From positions 1 to 64,000 of the forward strand of contig CAKZUE010000001.1 in assembly GCA_937920635.1 (NCBI GenBank): a stretch of DNA of 64,000 nt, written 5' to 3'. Positions 2,584 through 11,160 of the stretch are shown piece by piece; the stretch's first letter is position 1; every line of letters starts with the position of its first letter. The notes under the pieces are model-generated. The model did not search any database. It was not told where the DNA came from and worked only from the letters and a program-made list of their open reading frames with translations. Both the position numbers and the translations under genes were made by a program. This DNA comes from an uncultured Bryobacteraceae bacterium. GTDB lineage: Bacteria; Acidobacteriota; Terriglobia; Bryobacterales; Bryobacteraceae.

Positions 2584-2912
2584 GGGGCAGCCCCCGGCCA
2601 AGGCCGGGGGCAAACCGCGCAAGGAGCCGCGCGGGAGCGGCGCAGGCGCGACCAAGCGTAACTGGCGCGGAGCACAGGGCGGAAAATTGGTGCCAGGCGG
2701 GCCTGTCCCCACTTTTTTCCCCACTTTTTGCAGGGCGGAAAATTGGTGCCAGGCGGGCCTGTCCCTGGTTTTTTCCCCACTTTATTTATCGCAGGCGGCC
2801 CCCGGCCAAGGCCGGAGGGATCGGTGGGGATGTTCGGCGCTTTCGCTTTCGCGCCGTGCGGACGGCCTTGTGATAGATTTGAAGGGTTAGGCTCTCGCTT
2901 GAGGTAGTCCGC
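2584..2912. repeat. Intergenic repeat cluster (REP-like palindromes and paired 33-bp repeats)
   Basis: No gene is seen. The palindrome CCCCCGGCCAAGGCCGGGGG lies at 2591-2610 and a near copy at 2799-2818; a third is at 15458-15476. An inverted copy of the 29-bp-type element lies at about 2623-2656. A 33-bp repeat, GGCGGAAAATTGGTGCCAGG..., occurs at 2677-2709 and 2733-2765, each followed by a T-rich/CCCC tract. The csm operon starts right after this cluster; GAGG at 2901-2904 serves as its ribosome binding site. Confidence 0.75.
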
Positions 2913-4316
2913 GTGCAAGTTTTTTTGCAGGGCAAGTTGCTGGGGATCGAACCGTTCATCCACAGCACACGTGGCGGTTTTGCCGCGCTGGGCGGGCGGT
3001 GCCTGTACGTTTCGCTGTTGATGGAAGCGCTGCCGCGGATGCTGCTGGACCGGCTCGGGCTGGCGCGGGAGCTGCTGGGCTCGTGCGGCGGCGGGCAGTT
3101 TCTCACGGTGTTGCCGCGGGAGAGCCTGGAGGAAGCCAACGCATTTCTGGTGGATGCCACGCGGCGGCTGGCGGCCTTTTCGGGTCACCAATTGCGGCTG
3201 GCGTGGTCGAGCACGGAGAATCTGGGCGCGTGGAGCGACATCCGCAAGCGGCTGGACGCGGGCTTCCGCCGATGGCGCGGGTTGAACGCGGTGGAGCCGG
3301 CGGGCGTGTTCGAGCCGTACGACGAAGCCGGCGACGATTCCTTCTTTGAACGCCTGTTCCTGGGGCTGCCGGGCACGGCGGCTGCGGTGTGGGACGGCGA
3401 AAGCGAAGGCATGCTGCGGGCAGAGGGCGAGCCGCACTGGCTGGCCACGCACTGCGCGCAGATGCCGGGCGGCTGGCCGGCGGGCGTGGAGGAGCTGGCG
3501 GCGAGGGCGCGGGGCCGGAAGACGTGGGGGGTGCTGCGCGGCGACGCCGACCAGTTCCAGGCGCGGCTCCAGAAGGCCGAAACGGTGGAAGAGTTCATTC
3601 AGCTTTCGGTCTTTTACAAGCAGTTCTTTTTGGGCGAAGTGCAGACGCTGTGCGGGCAGCCGGAGTTTCGGGACAAGACGACGGTGCTCTACACAGGTGG
3701 CGACGAGTTCGCCATCGCCGGCAGTTGGGACGCGCTGCCGCCGTTTGCGCAGGCGATCGAGCGGGTGTTCCGGCGTTCGAGCGAAGAGCTGCTGAAGGAT
3801 TTTCCGGGCGTCGAGGGCAAGACGCTGTCGATGGGGATCGCGCTGGCGCCCGAGCCGGAGATCGAGCCGCTGGCGGTGTACCGGGAGGCGGGGCGGCAGC
3901 TTGAGGCGGCCAAGTCCCTCGGGCGCGACTCGGTGGCGGTGTTCGGAAAGGTTCTGGACTGGAAGCAGCTCTCCGAGGCGGCCGAGCTGAAGGAATTGAT
4001 GGTGCGGATGGTGGACCGGTATCATTGCTCGCCGCAGTTTCTGGGCGAGCTCGGCGCATTTTACCGCGAGACCGACCGGGTGCTGCCGGCCAGGAGCTCG
4101 CGGCGGCTGCTGGAGACGCAGCAGCGGCCGTGGCGGCTGCACCGGCGGCTGAACCGGGTGCTGGACGGGCCCGAGCGCAACCGGGAATTCGAGAAGGCCC
4201 GGCAGGCGGTGCTGGCGGCGTTTCTGACGCGCGGCCAGGCGCAGTTGAAACTGAAGCCCTCCGGGCGGGTGGCGCTGGAGTGGGCCCGGATGACGGAAGA
4301 GGCCGAACGAGCATGA
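2913..4316 (+). CDS. cas10: Cas10/Csm1-like large subunit of a type III-A effector, HD-less
   Basis: A 467-residue protein, much shorter than typical Csm1 (about 700-800). The first palm-like domain begins at the N-terminus: LLGIEPFIHS, then GGRCLYVSLLMEALP and SCGGGQFLTVLP. The second palm follows with LRGDADQF (Asp211) and YTGGDEFAIAG (GGDE at 262-265), and a helical C-terminal domain fills about 350-467. In the family this subunit scaffolds the Csm complex, and the palm pair makes cyclic oligoadenylate from ATP on target RNA binding. The N-terminal HD DNase is absent and no four-cysteine zinc finger is visible. GGDE replaces the usual GGDD, so cOA synthesis is uncertain. GTG start with GAGG 8 nt upstream; overlaps csm2 by ATGA. 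A standalone diguanylate cyclase is unlikely given the two palms and the csm neighbours. Confidence 0.9.
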   Translation: MQVFLQGKLLGIEPFIHSTRGGFAALGGRCLYVSLLMEALPRMLLDRLGLARELLGSCGGGQFLTVLPRESLEEANAFLVDATRRLAAFSGHQLRLAWSSTENLGAWSDIRKRLDAGFRRWRGLNAVEPAGVFEPYDEAGDDSFFERLFLGLPGTAAAVWDGESEGMLRAEGEPHWLATHCAQMPGGWPAGVEELAARARGRKTWGVLRGDADQFQARLQKAETVEEFIQLSVFYKQFFLGEVQTLCGQPEFRDKTTVLYTGGDEFAIAGSWDALPPFAQAIERVFRRSSEELLKDFPGVEGKTLSMGIALAPEPEIEPLAVYREAGRQLEAAKSLGRDSVAVFGKVLDWKQLSEAAELKELMVRMVDRYHCSPQFLGELGAFYRETDRVLPARSSRRLLETQQRPWRLHRRLNRVLDGPERNREFEKARQAVLAAFLTRGQAQLKLKPSGRVALEWARMTEEAERA

Positions 4317-5035
4317 ACGAACAGGAAGCAAGACAGACCCCGCAGGAAGCCGCGGAAGGCGCCGCGGCTGCTCCCGAGACCGCGACGGCTCCGCAGGCGG
4401 CGGAAGCGGCGGCGGCAGAGCCAACCGTGTCCGAGGCGACACCGCAGGCAGAAGCAGAGGCAGCCGGACAGGCGCCTGCCGAAGAGGCCAGGCCCGCGCA
4501 GGAAGCGGCGCCAGCCGCCGCCAGGCCGCCCCGGGAAGGCCGCCCTCCACGCGGTCCCAGACAGGCGCCGCCGGAGAAGGGCCAGCGCAAGGGGCCGCCG
4601 GAGCGCAATGAGCGCAACGAGCGCAGTGACCGCGGCGAGCGGAGAGGGCCGCGCGAGGCGGGACGCCCGGAGCGCCGCGGGGGGCCTGAAGGACCGGTCG
4701 AGATCGACATCGAAAAGCTGATCGGCGACAGCCTGTATCTGGACAATCAGGCGCATGCGATTGTGGCGCGGATGCGCGACATGGATTCGGGCACGCGGAG
4801 CCAGTTGCGTCGGCTGTTCAGCGCCGTGCGCCGGGCGTGCCGGACGGAAGAGGCCGAACGGCAGCACGCGTTTGTGATGCTGCGGGCGCGGCTGGCCTAC
4901 ACGATTGCGCGCCACCAGTTGCGGAGCCTGGATCCGCTGGAAAAGCTGCTGTTGCAGGTGACGCGGAAGAACGACGCCCGTGGATACGAGCGCTTCCGCG
5001 ACCTGTTTGAAGCCATTGTCGCCTACAACGAATAA
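4313..5035 (+). CDS. csm2: Csm2-like small subunit with long disordered N-terminal extension
   Basis: A 240-residue protein. Residues 1 to about 127 are a low-complexity Ala/Glu/Pro stretch followed by an Arg/Gly/Pro-rich stretch (for example RNERNERSDRGERRG). Residues about 128-240 are helical and match Csm2: IDIEKLIGD, SQLRRLFSAVRRA and a C-terminal FRDLFEAIVAYNE. Csm2 forms the small-subunit filament along the crRNA-target duplex. Typical Csm2 is about 120-160 residues, so the basic tail is an addition that may bind RNA. ATG at 4313 overlaps the cas10 stop; the ORF track's longer start inside cas10 is a shadow. Confidence 0.85.
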   Translation: MNEQEARQTPQEAAEGAAAAPETATAPQAAEAAAAEPTVSEATPQAEAEAAGQAPAEEARPAQEAAPAAARPPREGRPPRGPRQAPPEKGQRKGPPERNERNERSDRGERRGPREAGRPERRGGPEGPVEIDIEKLIGDSLYLDNQAHAIVARMRDMDSGTRSQLRRLFSAVRRACRTEEAERQHAFVMLRARLAYTIARHQLRSLDPLEKLLLQVTRKNDARGYERFRDLFEAIVAYNE

Positions 5036-5059
5036 GGACTGGAGATCGCGGAGAGAGCC

Positions 5060-5890
5060 ATGAGTTCACACACCGCTACCACCAAGCTGGGCCTGATCGG
5101 CAAGCTGCTGCTCGACGGGGAGATGATCTGCGAGACGGGGCTCCATATCGGCGCAGGCAAGGGTTCGCTGGACCTGGGAGGCGCGGACAATCCGGTGGTG
5201 AAAGACGCCTTCGGGAGGCCTTATGTGCCGGGCAGCTCGCTGCGCGGGCGCATCCGGAGCCTGCTGGAGCAGGCGGCGGGGGTGGTGGGCGCCGAGGATC
5301 TGGTCTACCTGTCGCGGCGGCGGGGCCAGGAGGTGCGGATCCATCAGAGCGACGATCCGGGCGACGAAATCTGCCTGCTGTTCGGGCGCAATCCGGGGCG
5401 GATGGAGCGCGTGTCGGGAGAAGCGCTGGAGCCGTCGGCGGCGACGCCGGCGCGGCTGACCGTGTACGATGCGCCGCTCGAGCTGGACTCGATCACGCCG
5501 CAGATGCGCGAGAACCTGGATGACGAGCTGACGGAGGTGAAGAGCGAGAACGCGATCGACCGGGTGACGGCGCAGTCGAACGCGCGCACGCTGGAGCGGG
5601 TGCCGGCGGGGGCGCGGTTCCGCGTGCGGATGGTGCTCGACATTCTCTGCCCCGAGGACCGCGAACTGGTGGAGAAGCTGCTGGAAGGGCTGCGGCTGCT
5701 GGAAGACGACGCGCTGGGCGGAGGCGGCTCGCGCGGCAGCGGGCGGGTGCGGTTCGCCAACTGGAAGGCGAGCTGGCGCAGCCGCGGCTACTACACGGGC
5801 GCGGCGGGCGAAGAGGTGCTGGTGGAGAATGCGGCCACGACCGCAGACCTCCAGGCGGCGAGCCGCGCGTTTGCGGAGAAACTGAGCTGA
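5060..5890 (+). CDS. csm3: Csm3 (Cas7-type RAMP backbone and target-RNA nuclease)
   Basis: A 276-residue RAMP protein. GLHIGAGKGSLDLGGADNPVVKD (residues 27-49) is the Csm3 signature; Asp43 aligns with the catalytic Asp that cuts target RNA every 6 nt in characterised Csm3 (family knowledge). It is followed by YVPGSSLRGRIR, the conserved RNA-binding loop, and a glycine-rich loop GGGGSRGSGRVRF near 225-240. Backbone cleavage of bound RNA therefore appears intact, unlike the missing Cas10 HD domain. It lies 24 nt after csm2 with a GGAG/GAGAG-type ribosome binding site, and is co-directional with csm4. Confidence 0.93.
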   Translation: MSSHTATTKLGLIGKLLLDGEMICETGLHIGAGKGSLDLGGADNPVVKDAFGRPYVPGSSLRGRIRSLLEQAAGVVGAEDLVYLSRRRGQEVRIHQSDDPGDEICLLFGRNPGRMERVSGEALEPSAATPARLTVYDAPLELDSITPQMRENLDDELTEVKSENAIDRVTAQSNARTLERVPAGARFRVRMVLDILCPEDRELVEKLLEGLRLLEDDALGGGGSRGSGRVRFANWKASWRSRGYYTGAAGEEVLVENAATTADLQAASRAFAEKLS

Positions 5891-5903
5891 CCGGGGCTGC
5901 CGC

Positions 5904-6923
5904 ATGAACCCTGCGCTGCTAGTCCGCATCCGGCCATCCACGCCGTGGCGCCTGGGCCCGGAGACCGGGCTGCTGTCCGAGGCTGCTGCCGTGTGGCACA
6001 GCGACGCGGTGTATTCCGCCGTGACGCTGGCGCTCGAGCAGCTCGGCTGGATGGAAGAGTGGCTGGAGGCGACGTCAGACCCGTTCCGCGAGCCGGTGGC
6101 GCGGTTCACGTCCGCGTTTCCGTGGCAGCGGAACCTGCTGTATGCGCCGCCGCCGCGCGGGCTGTGGCCGCCGGAAACAGGGGCGGCGCGGGCGCGGTGG
6201 AAGGGCGCGGAGCTGATCCCGACGCAACTGGCGGGGGCGCTGCTGCGCGGCGAGCGGTTCGATGAGCAGGCGTGGGAACTGGATGGATGGTGCGGGTGCC
6301 TGATCCCGGCCGGAAGCCGCTCGGCGACGGGGCCGTTCCGGTTTCTGCGGCGCTCGTGCGCGGCGGTGGACCGGGTGACGGGCGGCCATGCGCTGCCGTA
6401 TGTGACCGGGTGCGTGCAGTTCGCGCCGGCTTCGGGATTGTGGTGCGCAGCGCAGTTCGCCACGCAGACGGCGTATGCGGTGTGGGGGCCGCGGATCCAG
6501 GCGGCATTCCGGCTGCTGGGCGACTCCGGCGTGGGAGGGCTGCGGTCACGGGGATTCGGGCGGGCCAGAAGCGTGGAGTTTCAGGCCGGGCTGCTGGAGG
6601 ATCTGCTGTTCGGGCCGGCGGGCGCGCCGCGTCCCGGGCGGGGCTGGTGGCTGCTGTCGCTGGCGGCGCCCGCGCCCGGGGATCCGATCCGTTGGGACGA
6701 AGGCGATTATCAGATCATCCAGCGCGGCGGGCGGGTGGGAAGTCTGGCCGGGGGCGGCGCGCGCAAGCTTGTCAGCCGGATGCTGGCGGAGGGTTCGGTG
6801 GTAGTCAGTCCCCGCGCCCCGCGCGGGACCGTCACCGACGTCACGCCGGAAGGGTGCCCGCATCCGGTGGTCCGCGCCGGTTACGCCGTGGCGATTTCGA
6901 TTCCATGGCCGGGGAACGCATGA
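5904..6923 (+). CDS. csm4: Csm4 (Cas5-type RAMP, binds crRNA 5' handle)
   Basis: A 339-residue protein with the Csm4 hallmark LLGDSGVGGLRSRGFGR at about 205-221 and a C-terminal region with a second RAMP-like half (HPVVRAGYAVAISIP). The N-terminus IRPSTPWRLGPETG and 'SDAVYSAV' also fit Csm4, which normally begins with a short beta strand followed by a conserved H.SDtLfsAl-like segment. Csm4 contacts Cas10 and caps the crRNA 5' tag. It starts 13 nt after csm3 and overlaps csm5 by ATGA, indicating translational coupling. Confidence 0.88.
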   Translation: MNPALLVRIRPSTPWRLGPETGLLSEAAAVWHSDAVYSAVTLALEQLGWMEEWLEATSDPFREPVARFTSAFPWQRNLLYAPPPRGLWPPETGAARARWKGAELIPTQLAGALLRGERFDEQAWELDGWCGCLIPAGSRSATGPFRFLRRSCAAVDRVTGGHALPYVTGCVQFAPASGLWCAAQFATQTAYAVWGPRIQAAFRLLGDSGVGGLRSRGFGRARSVEFQAGLLEDLLFGPAGAPRPGRGWWLLSLAAPAPGDPIRWDEGDYQIIQRGGRVGSLAGGGARKLVSRMLAEGSVVVSPRAPRGTVTDVTPEGCPHPVVRAGYAVAISIPWPGNA

Positions 6924-8086
6924 CTCGCTACCGCCTCACCGTACTGACCCCGCTGCTGGCCGGCGATGGCCAGAAGCTGGCGCCGATCGACTACATGGTC
7001 TGGAAGGACCAGGTGAACGTGCTCGACCAAAGGCGCATTTTCCGGCTGCTGGCGCGCGGGCCGCGGCTGGAGGCGTATCTGGCTCAGTTGCGGCGGGCGG
7101 AGAAACTGGATTTCGCCTCCTGGGGCGGCTACGCGCAGAATTACGCCAGCCGGCGGATCCCGTTCGAGCACCCGTCTTCGGCTGCTTACTACGCACGCAC
7201 GTCGGCCGAGCATCTGTTCATCCCCACGTTTGCTTCGACGAGTTCGGGCGAGATCTACGTGCCGGGCAGCGCCATCAAGGGTGCGTTGCGGCGGGCCGTG
7301 GTGCTGGGGCTGGCCGGCGAAGCGGCGTGGAGGACTCTGGGAGAGGCGCTGGCAAAGAACGACCGCGCGCCGCGGCGGCCGGGCGCGCTGCTGGAGCAGA
7401 TGCTGCTGGGCGGCCCTGGTTCGGATTGGCTGCGAGGCCTGATGGTGGCCGATTCGGAGCCGCTGGCGCCGGGCGGTTGCACGCGCGTGTATCTGCTGCG
7501 CACGGCCACTCTGGTGCAGCGCACGGGACGCACCGAGGTGGGATGGAAGATGAGTCCGCGCGGGGCGGTGGAGTTCCGGCGGCCGGGCGATTCGACACCG
7601 CATTTTGCCGAGATGGCGGCGCCGGGCACGGTTTTCGAGGGCGGCGCGGGCGCGGCGTTGATCGCGAGTCAGGAAAAGGCGCGGCGGGCGCTGCGGTGGA
7701 ACGGCGACGGCTTCGATTGGGGCAAGCTGCTGGCGGCGGCCAACCAGGCGGCCGCTCAGTTGCTGGCGCTGCACCGGCGCTATGCCGAGGCCACGGGGCT
7801 GCGGGGCGTGGCGGAGTCGATGGCGCGGCTCGAGCAGAGGCTGGACCGGATCCAGGAGGAAGGCAACCGCTGCCTGCTGTGTCTGGGCTGGGGCACGGGG
7901 TTGCTGGCGAAATCAGCGAGCCTGGAGACGGGCCGGGGCCCATATCAGGAATTGCTCCGGCTGCTGCCGGTGTACCGGGAGCCGTTGCGCACGGGACTGC
8001 CCTTCCCCAAGACGCGGCAGGTGGTTTTCCTTCAGGACCAGCCGGCCACGCTGGCGGGGTGGGCCGAACTGGAGCTGGGCGGCTGA
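6920..8086 (+). CDS. csm5: Csm5 (Cas7-like RAMP at the 3' end of the effector)
   Basis: A 388-residue protein in the frame the ORF track opens at 6272. ATG at 6920 overlaps the csm4 stop and has GGGGAA 5-7 nt upstream, so I choose it over ATG 6905. MTRYRLTVLTPLLAGDG and YVPGSAIKGALRRAVV (about residues 114-128) are Csm5 motifs. In the family Csm5 binds the crRNA 3' end and recruits maturation nucleases. It is the last csm gene; neither cas6 nor csm6 follows. Confidence 0.87.
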   Translation: MTRYRLTVLTPLLAGDGQKLAPIDYMVWKDQVNVLDQRRIFRLLARGPRLEAYLAQLRRAEKLDFASWGGYAQNYASRRIPFEHPSSAAYYARTSAEHLFIPTFASTSSGEIYVPGSAIKGALRRAVVLGLAGEAAWRTLGEALAKNDRAPRRPGALLEQMLLGGPGSDWLRGLMVADSEPLAPGGCTRVYLLRTATLVQRTGRTEVGWKMSPRGAVEFRRPGDSTPHFAEMAAPGTVFEGGAGAALIASQEKARRALRWNGDGFDWGKLLAAANQAAAQLLALHRRYAEATGLRGVAESMARLEQRLDRIQEEGNRCLLCLGWGTGLLAKSASLETGRGPYQELLRLLPVYREPLRTGLPFPKTRQVVFLQDQPATLAGWAELELGG

Positions 8087-8172: not shown

Positions 8173-9063
8173 ATGTACAACGCGTTTTTCGGATTTCGGG
8201 AAAATCCCTTCAATTTAAGTCCTGATCCCTCGTTTCTGTACCGCAGTCCGCAGCATGAAGAGGCGCTGGCGAACCTGATTTACGGCGTGCATGGCCGCAA
8301 GGGCTTCATCGTGCTCACCGGCGAGGTGGGAACCGGCAAGACGACGCTGCTCGAGTGCCTGCGCGACGAACTGGACGCCCACGGCATCGAGTTCGCCTAT
8401 CTGTTCAACTCGCGCATCAATCCGCAACAGTTTTTCGAGATGATCGCCTACGATCTCAACCTCCAGTGCGACCGCAAGTCGAAAACGGAGGTGCTGTTCG
8501 CGCTGAACCACCTGCTGATCGAGGAGGCCAATGCCGGCCGCACCACGGTGTTGATCGTGGACGAAGCGCACAATCTCGAATGGGACGTGCTGGAAGAGAT
8601 CCGGCTGCTCACCAACTTGGAGAACCCCAAGCTTGGCAAGCTTCTCCAGATCATTCTGTCCGGGCAGCCAGAGCTGGACCGCAAGCTGGAGGCGCCCGAA
8701 TTCCGGCAACTGAAGCAGCGGATCGTGTTGCGGTGCATGCTGTCGCCGCTGACGCTGGAGGAAACGACCGAATACATCCGCACGCGGCTGACCCGGGCGG
8801 GCATGGCCGAAATGAAAGTGTTTCCGCCCGAGGTGCTGCGGGAAATCCATCTGCGCAGCCAGGGAATTCCGCGCGTCATCAATTCGCTCTGCGACAACCT
8901 GCTGCTGACCGCTTTCGCGCTGGAGACCAAGGTCACCAGCGTCGAGATGCTGGACGAGGTGTGCCTGGACATGCGGCTCTCCTGGCCCGGCATGCCCCGC
9001 CATTTCCGGGCGAAAATCACTCAGCCGCCGGAAACCGCCTGGATCCCACCTTCGGAGAGCTGA
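8173..9063 (+). CDS. ExeA/GspA-like AAA ATPase
   Basis: A 296-residue ATPase. It begins with MYNAFFGFRENPFNLSPDPSFLY, the usual N-terminus of ExeA-like proteins, then Walker A GEVGTGKTT (about 51-59), Walker B VLIVDEAHN (about 127-135), a sensor region LSGQPEL and the helical LRSQGIPRVINSLCDNLL. Family members power assembly steps of secretion or polysaccharide export machinery; this short form lacks the C-terminal peptidoglycan-binding domain of true ExeA. It lies 86 nt after csm5 with GGAGG just before ATG 8173. That gap, and the abundance of such ATPases in acidobacteria, make a CRISPR role unproven. Confidence 0.85.
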   Translation: MYNAFFGFRENPFNLSPDPSFLYRSPQHEEALANLIYGVHGRKGFIVLTGEVGTGKTTLLECLRDELDAHGIEFAYLFNSRINPQQFFEMIAYDLNLQCDRKSKTEVLFALNHLLIEEANAGRTTVLIVDEAHNLEWDVLEEIRLLTNLENPKLGKLLQIILSGQPELDRKLEAPEFRQLKQRIVLRCMLSPLTLEETTEYIRTRLTRAGMAEMKVFPPEVLREIHLRSQGIPRVINSLCDNLLLTAFALETKVTSVEMLDEVCLDMRLSWPGMPRHFRAKITQPPETAWIPPSES

Positions 9064-9331: not shown

Positions 9332-10054
9332 TCAACGGCGCCGCCTCCAGGCGAGATACGCCAGCCCCGCGCCAAGGAGGAGCATCGTGCGGGGCTCCGG
9401 TACCTGGGCGTAATAGACATCGTCGATACCCCACAGGTCCCGTTTATCGCTTGTCGCGCCGGTAGTGATTGAGAAACTGGTGATCGCCGCGCCAGGGTTC
9501 GAGTAGCCCCAGAAAAGCGCTCCACCCGAATAGTCGTTCTTGGTGATGCTCAGCGACTGGCTCTCACCATCGTTGAATGCCACAAGGATCGGACCCGGGA
9601 AATTATCCTGCGTGTCGGTCAGGTAGAAACCGAAGGCATAGACCGGGACCGCGAAAGTGAATGTCACTGCCCCTCCTGCCGAATCATAGGCAGGGACAAC
9701 CCGCAGGTGTTGAGAGCCACTGGCCGTGACGTTAAAGCCAAGCGGATCCGGGGAGTGCTCATTAATCGCGCAGACGCCGCCGCAAAAGCTTGAGAGCAAA
9801 TTCGTCATCGTCACGTCAACGCCCGGAGCAGCCGTGAAGTTGGCGTTGAAGCCAACAGCCAGCCCCTCGAACGTGATGGGTCCTGTGGCGCCGGTAGCAG
9901 AAACAAACGCGCTCCTCGCTGCGTCCGATAGGGGCCTGTCGTCGCCCGGACCCGCCCCATTGTCTGCTCCGTAATAGATGGTTGCACCCTGTAACGAAAT
10001 GGCTGCCAACAGCCCGACTGCCAGGCTCCTTGAACAATCGGTTAGTTTTTTCAT
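9332..10054 (-). CDS. PEP-CTERM sorting-domain protein
   Basis: A 240-residue secreted protein with an N-terminal signal peptide (MKKLTDCSRSLAVGLLAAISLQGA) and a C-terminal PEP-CTERM tripartite tail: VPEPRTMLLLGAGLAYLAWRRRR. The middle is a beta-rich domain (FEGLAVGFNANF, YAFGFYLTDTQDNFPG, SFSITTGATSDKRDLWGIDDVYY), like other PEP-CTERM proteins of unknown ligand. The tail is recognised by an exosortase (EpsH/XrtA type) encoded elsewhere. ATG is preceded by a GGAGGAGCGAG ribosome binding site on the minus strand. Confidence 0.9.
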   Translation of the reverse strand: MKKLTDCSRSLAVGLLAAISLQGATIYYGADNGAGPGDDRPLSDAARSAFVSATGATGPITFEGLAVGFNANFTAAPGVDVTMTNLLSSFCGGVCAINEHSPDPLGFNVTASGSQHLRVVPAYDSAGGAVTFTFAVPVYAFGFYLTDTQDNFPGPILVAFNDGESQSLSITKNDYSGGALFWGYSNPGAAITSFSITTGATSDKRDLWGIDDVYYAQVPEPRTMLLLGAGLAYLAWRRRR

Positions 10055-10322: not shown

Positions 10323-10655
10323 CCTCCCCGAACCGGTCACCAACGTTGTCCTCTGCCCAAGGGTGGGGTCTTTTCCATCGGTACTTTCGGGTACCGGCCC
10401 TGAAACGAGAATCAGCGGCGCGCGGCGCGGAACACGCCGGGATGGAGAAATGGCGCCCAGGCGGCCCTGTCCCCCCTTTTTAGAGCGAAGCTCCTGTCCC
10501 ATAGCGACCGCAGGGAAACGCCGGGTGAGGGGGATCGGATTTTTCCGAGCCCTAAGTGGAAGCACTGAGCCATAGCCTTAGATGTAGATCTTAGACCCGA
10601 CTAGGTGAAACACCTGCGTTTCATCGCAGTTGGATCTTTCGGAAGGTGCATTGAC

Positions 10656-11018
10656 ATGAGGACAACAATTTTCGTGGTTGCCCTTGCATGTGCTGTTTCG
10701 ATGCTTACGGCTTCTGCTGCCGTTTTGCCATCGGACAGCACGGTGGCGATCCGCCCTGGTCCGCCGCCGGATCCGCTGGGTTGCGAGCCTTGGGAGAAGT
10801 GCAGCGGAAACGGGATCCGTCCCGGTCCGCCGCCGCATCCGCTGGGTTGCGACGATCACACGGTGACAGTGTGTGTGAGCGCGATCCGTCCCGGTCCGCC
10901 GCCGGATCCGTTGGGCTTCGACCCGGCGATCCGTCCCGGTCCGCCGCCGGATCCGTTGGGCTTCGACCCCGCGATCCGTCCTGGTCCGCCGCCGGATCCG
11001 CTGGGCTTTGACCCATAG
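10656..11018 (+). CDS. Secreted proline-rich tandem-repeat protein (IRPGPPPDPLG repeats)
   Basis: I do not recognise a family. The 120-residue product has a clear signal peptide (MRTTIFVVALACAVSMLTASAA) and five copies of IRPGPPPDPLG (one has H for D). The last three are contiguous 15-residue units AIRPGPPPDPLGFDP, 45 bp apart at DNA level (10884, 10929, 10974). The first two copies are followed by Cys-containing variable linkers (LGCEPWEKCSGNG, LGCDDHTVTVCVS). ATG at 10656 has GGAAGG 9 nt upstream; the track's start at 10605 would place 17 residues before the signal peptide. A strong terminator follows. It could be a surface or envelope protein or a precursor of repeated short peptides. Confidence 0.75.
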   Translation: MRTTIFVVALACAVSMLTASAAVLPSDSTVAIRPGPPPDPLGCEPWEKCSGNGIRPGPPPHPLGCDDHTVTVCVSAIRPGPPPDPLGFDPAIRPGPPPDPLGFDPAIRPGPPPDPLGFDP

Positions 11019-11122: not shown

Positions 11123-11160
11123 AGGCCCGAAAACGGCAACGTTTTCGGGCCTTCGTTTTT
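11123..11160 (+). terminator. Rho-independent terminator
   Basis: AGGCCCGAAAAC at 11123-11134, a 6-nt loop GGCAAC, then GTTTTCGGGCCT at 11141-11152 followed by TCGTTTTT. A 12-bp perfect stem with a U-tract on the plus strand probably ends the transcript of the repeat-protein gene. Confidence 0.9.

Follow-up and report, generated by a model that had tools for sequence, protein, structure and literature searches.

A candidate secreted protein of repeated proline-rich 11-residue units, and a second gene carrying the same motif, in a genus of uncultured Bryobacteraceae

Comparison of five genomes of a genus of uncultured Bryobacteraceae (Acidobacteriota) revealed what, judged from sequence, is a real, genus-restricted orphan gene, whose product joins a signal peptide to tandem copies of an 11-residue motif, IRPGPPPDPLG, and further revealed the same motif in a second, unlinked small gene in every one of these genomes. 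We give about an even chance to the reading that the repeat gene encodes a genus-specific, disordered, secreted protein of the "beads on a string" kind that displays a short linear ligand many times over and is under translational control. Under this proposal, a Sec-exported, intrinsically disordered chain would consist almost wholly of (A/E/G)IRP-(G/I)(P/R)-PPDPLG copies, with each 11-mer acting as a functional bead, namely a short linear ligand that binds some partner in the envelope or outside the cell. The number of beads (5-10), and hence avidity or dose, would be set by tandem duplication, the second, unlinked small secreted protein would show the same ligand once or twice, and a hairpin covering the ribosome binding site would gate the output of the repeat gene at translation. 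Lineage-restricted short secreted proteins are seldom interpretable; here two unrelated genes keep one 11-mer, which one of the two has multiplied, and most other sequence drifts. The second locus and the leader make the gene more informative than the initial annotation of this DNA could show.

The repeat gene and its orthologues

The repeat gene lies in the window, the whole 64,000-nucleotide stretch of DNA analysed here, and its parts are collected in Table 1. The open reading frame of 120 residues bore out the initial annotation in its signal peptide, of 20-21 residues by inspection (MRTTIFVVALACAVSMLTASA before AV), in its five IRPGPPP(D/H)PLG units, in its Cys-bearing early linkers, each of which has a Cys pair, and in its own ribosome binding site and terminator, the latter about 105 bp 3' of the stop codon. 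Two of its finer claims held in part: the five units are near-identical with the exception of unit 2, which reads PPPHPLG, and the last three, described as a perfect 45-bp tandem, keep an exact period while their DNA copies match at 94% (45 bp x 3.0, score 242, Tandem Repeats Finder) with differences that are all synonymous. AlphaFold2 predicted a helix at residues 2-21 only, with a mean pLDDT of 48.9 and no fold past the signal helix. The repeat protein had no Pfam, NCBIfam or PDB-sequence match at E<=10, and no anchor domain was recognised in it. Rfam gave two matches near the gene, Ms_IGR-7 (antisense to the repeats) and SdsR (at the terminator), both far below the gathering score.

Table 1. 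Features of the repeat gene, its neighbourhood and the second locus (window positions unless a contig is named)
Feature	Position	Strand	Remarks
Secreted repeat-protein gene, 120 aa, ATG to TAG	10656-11018	+	From ORF, translation and orthologues
Signal peptide	10656-10718	+	Likely cleavage between TASA and AV, read by eye; MRTT start kept in 5/5 genomes
Motif unit 1, IRPGPPPDPLG	10749-10781	+	
Linker CEPWEKCSGNG	10782-10814	+	Two Cys; this species only
Motif unit 2, IRPGPPPHPLG	10815-10847	+	
Linker CDDHTVTVCVSA	10848-10883	+	Two Cys; this species only
Motif unit 3	10884-10916	+	Followed by FDPA
Motif unit 4	10929-10961	+	Followed by FDPA
Motif unit 5	10974-11006	+	Followed by FDP and stop codon
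Shine-Dalgarno sequence GGAAGG	10641-10646	+	9 nt 5' of ATG; invariant in five genomes
5' leader hairpin, outer stem over Shine-Dalgarno sequence	10577-10652	+	Conserved and covarying in five genomes
Intrinsic terminator	11123-11152	+	13-pair hairpin and T run; similar hairpins by eye in other genomes
Type III-A CRISPR genes (Cas10/Csm1, Csm3-like RAMP, Csm4, further RAMP)	2883-8083	+	
AAA_22 (ExeA-like) ATPase gene	8173-9063		Adjoins CRISPR genes; gene order kept in genus
PEP-CTERM protein gene	9332-10054	-	Between ATPase and repeat gene
Locus 2 ORF	L061:4504-4788	-	
Locus 2 ORF	L062:4857-5114	+	
Locus 2 ORF	L024:4925-5215	-	
Locus 2 ORF	L023:6099-6353	-	
Locus 2 ORF	L104	-	
Third ORF, behind locus 2	L061:~3935-4505	-	Matching stretch in L062, L024, L023 and L104

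A syntenic orthologue was present in 5/5 genomes of the genus, each time behind the csm genes and the AAA ATPase and with the MRTT start and signal peptide conserved, and a tRNA-Glu gene follows in four of them. The exception is G001 (contig L019), whose counterpart of this tRNA-Glu(CTC) is degenerate and is not called by ARAGORN. The neighbours of the gene further include a PEP-CTERM protein, an LMWPc protein and an ORF without a Pfam match; a search of the corresponding regions in the four remaining genomes found no match to the PEP-CTERM gene.

Unit number varied among the orthologues, as the initial annotation had suggested checking, with 5 units in this genome, 6 in G001, 10 in G002, at least 8 in G003 and 7 in G004, where the counts for G001 and G002 take in a degenerate first unit and that for G003 is a lower bound set by an assembly gap. 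The mature chains span about 95-155 residues of motif and short linkers. The repeat period is 15 residues, broken to 22 and 23 in this species. The ATPases of G003 and this genome share 94.6% identity, yet the G003 array consists of plain units, at least 8 of them, and lacks Cys linkers, and this pair shows that the repeat array changes faster than its surroundings. The linkers comprised FDPA, FDRE, FDRAE and the two Cys types, such that both change and the insertion of a Cys pair are tolerated between units.

With the degenerate first units of G001 and G002 excluded, codon changes between units within a gene amounted to 13 synonymous and 1 non-synonymous across the five genomes, against opportunities per unit of about 30 synonymous and 69 non-synonymous. 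The sole non-synonymous change is the D>H of the Cys-linked unit 2 in this genome, and outside this genome the count was 9 synonymous versus 0. The likeness of units within a gene may come partly from recent duplication rather than selection, as the units of G003 are nearly identical in DNA; recent duplication would not, on these counts, explain why units that have gathered synonymous changes show none in amino acids. Taken together, presence in all five congeners, synteny, synonymous-only divergence of the tandem units and the conserved leader and terminators give good support, at the level of sequence, to the initial view of a genuine expressed gene.

The same motif at a second locus

Pattern searches of the five genomes located one further recurrent site, an ORF of 64-74 residues with a signal peptide (locus 2), in 5/5 genomes, on another contig or far off in the chromosome and behind a gene for a coiled-coil protein. 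In each genome IRPG(P/R)PPDPL(G/R) directly follows the signal peptide and forms the main conserved part of the ORF, and in three species a second copy, (K/R)PGPPPDPL, is present. The alignment of locus 2 revealed that I-R-P-G-x-P-P-D-P-L is invariant and most other positions are not, with third-position changes throughout. Conservation of the FD that follows the motif is seen in the tandem gene and not at locus 2, so the unit may differ between the two. Because all five genomes have the same motif in an unlinked ORF, the conserved unit is the 11-mer and not the array or a long polymer, and the motif itself may thus work as an extracellular peptide shared by two small genes. The natural tool with which to look for a partner is a single synthetic peptide.

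Directly behind locus 2 lies a further ORF that starts near FCQALSLCLA in 5/5 genomes, with its first 30 bases almost invariant and a terminator at its end. This would be a third short secreted protein, perhaps also under RNA constraint. A reading of this stretch as non-coding RNA was set aside in view of the shared open frame and its signal-peptide-like start, as was an Rfam ylbH match near the locus 2 terminator (33 versus 50 bits).

Homologues, whose complete absence the initial annotation had taken as grounds against the gene, were found in this genus only. Outside it, no motif in a coding setting was found among 237 genomes of the family, about 85,000 GTDB species, phages, plasmids and viral contigs, using narrow search patterns that diverged relatives could escape. 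The phages and plasmids were searched by tblastn and the viral contigs by pattern, and among 396 sampled genomes of the phylum a search for tandem PDPLG gave no further convincing case. In the roughly 85,000 species the strict pattern had only two matches elsewhere, neither in a plausible secreted ORF, and a chance motif behind a signal peptide in five of five genomes is for this reason not credible. These two matches, which are mycobacterial, and the out-of-genus matches within the family were rejected for a wrong frame, the lack of an open frame or the lack of a signal peptide. The string IRPGPPPDPLG was not found in a literature search.

A leader hairpin over the ribosome binding site

A hairpin is predicted in the approximately 75 nt before the ATG, with the Shine-Dalgarno region paired in its outer stem. 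Against shuffled sequences, the fold z-score lay between -2.1 and -2.8 in four genomes and was -0.6 in G003. Across the five sequences 91.7% of pair cells were standard, and sliding the partners by one column let pairing fall to about half. Seven pairs were changed on both sides, a number that 52 of 500 shuffles reached and that is not striking alone; the covariation score was 0.312 versus a shuffled mean of 0.211, with 0 of 500 shuffles as high, bearing in mind that these five sequences also served to derive the structure, which biases the comparison in its favour, and that five are few for covariation. A covariance model of the leader (R1) recovered it once per genome of the genus, always before the repeat gene, with no convincing leader elsewhere in the 237 family genomes, and no match in Rfam 15 overlapped it up to E=10. 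The leader probably controls translation of the repeat gene, and is a candidate for testing how this gene gets switched on. Temperature sensing is possible, with no particular support; the predicted opening of the Shine-Dalgarno sequence rises only gradually with temperature.

Competing explanations and known systems

A disordered string of ligands is favoured because the second gene makes do with single motifs and the linkers vary, some bearing Cys. Multivalent display and peptide release nevertheless predict nearly the same sequence pattern, and as the main rival we tentatively entertain a multi-copy peptide precursor, in which extracellular cleavage and trimming of the exported chain would yield free IRPxxPPDPLG(FD) peptides serving as a signal or as a bacteriocin-like agent. 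The repeat gene has what generally marks a multi-copy secreted precursor (a signal peptide and tandem near-identical units in variable number), the protein ends at the end of a unit, the same 11-mer comes directly after the signal peptide of the second gene, and apidaecin precursors have the same layout (PMC11549390). However, the linkers have no protease site in common, either across species or between the two loci, and no dedicated protease, transporter or modifying enzyme was seen beside the gene, where processing or modifying enzymes had been proposed as a check. The initial idea of a precursor of identical peptides is accordingly the less probable of the two. Doubtful in our estimation is a bacterial counterpart of the multi-copy peptide hormone precursors, in which these Acidobacteriota would secrete unmodified IRPxxPPDPLG from two unlinked genes, one of them a 5-10-copy amplifier with a leader covering its ribosome binding site, as a genus-specific signalling or inhibitory peptide.

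The other initial reading, a repetitive surface polymer, is disfavoured. As a structural or matrix protein, the chain would serve the envelope as a rod or spacer rich in proline, in keeping with its proline-rich, predicted disordered and repetitive sequence and its freely changing copy number, but the mature part is short and lacks a recognised anchor domain, in this species the period of 15 residues lengthens to 22-23, and an unlinked small secreted protein has the motif just once or twice, which together render this account unlikely.

Ribosome arrest, in which the motif (GIRPGP, PPPDP) would stall ribosomes to regulate a neighbouring gene in the manner of SecM or RAPP peptides, appears highly improbable. 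The arrest stretch of SecM is GIRAGP, and polyproline stall motifs include PPD. These are locally similar to the repeat units, and a signal peptide is present as in SecM, but a terminator and then tRNA-Glu lie downstream rather than a regulated coding gene, the positions after IRP vary (GP, IP, IR, GR), no copy contains RAPP or RAGP, and a single stall would have no use for 5-10 copies. A DNA tandem repeat open by chance, as short arrays can be in a GC-rich genome, is barely conceivable, contradicted as it is by in-frame orthologues in all five congeners with conserved start and signal peptide and by the synonymous-only variation of the tandem units.

Among known systems, comparison is offered by ActA and TccP/EspFu, which are disordered proline-rich proteins whose tandem units each bind a partner and vary in number between strains. 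The repeat protein resembles them in its predicted disordered, proline-rich units and variable copy number; those proteins act on animal cells. SecM and RAPP-type arrest peptides (PMC10987492, PMC10951233) are likewise exported small proteins with an Arg-x-Gly-Pro-like stretch, and differ in having a regulated coding gene, one for localisation machinery, directly downstream, no such multiplicity of copies and critical residues that here vary. Plant CLE precursors, including multi-CLE proteins, are secreted and contain a proline-rich peptide of 12-13 residues, sometimes in several copies (PMC5570945). Their precursor layout is similar, and PDPL is common to the repeat unit and CLV3 RTVPSGPDPLHH, but the likeness is of four residues only, there is no evidence of a plant host, and we claim no homology. 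Both this likeness and that to SecM (GIR-GP) are too short to carry weight.

A RiPP with several cores would have a modifying enzyme encoded next to its precursor, and none was seen beside the repeat gene. The apidaecin-type insect proline-rich antimicrobial peptides are made as pre-pro-polyproteins (PMC11549390), and resemble the repeat protein in having a leader for secretion and then many near-identical proline-rich units, variable in number and set apart by short spacers, with some local likeness in sequence (RPPDPL and PPPHPL here versus PRPPHPRL). They differ in that the repeat protein is bacterial, with no homology shown, and in unit net charge, which is -1 to +1 here versus +3 to +6 (the type II mark being +3 or more, and apidaecin giving +3 by the same count). 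The type II C-terminal PRPPHPRL is absent from units that read RP(G/I)(P/R)PP(D/H)PLG without a conserved C-terminal RL, as is a conserved protease spacer such as RREAEPEAEP from all five linker types. Should a peptide nonetheless be released, this would be a multi-copy secreted peptide of bacteria, arranged in a way familiar chiefly from insects, fungi and plants.
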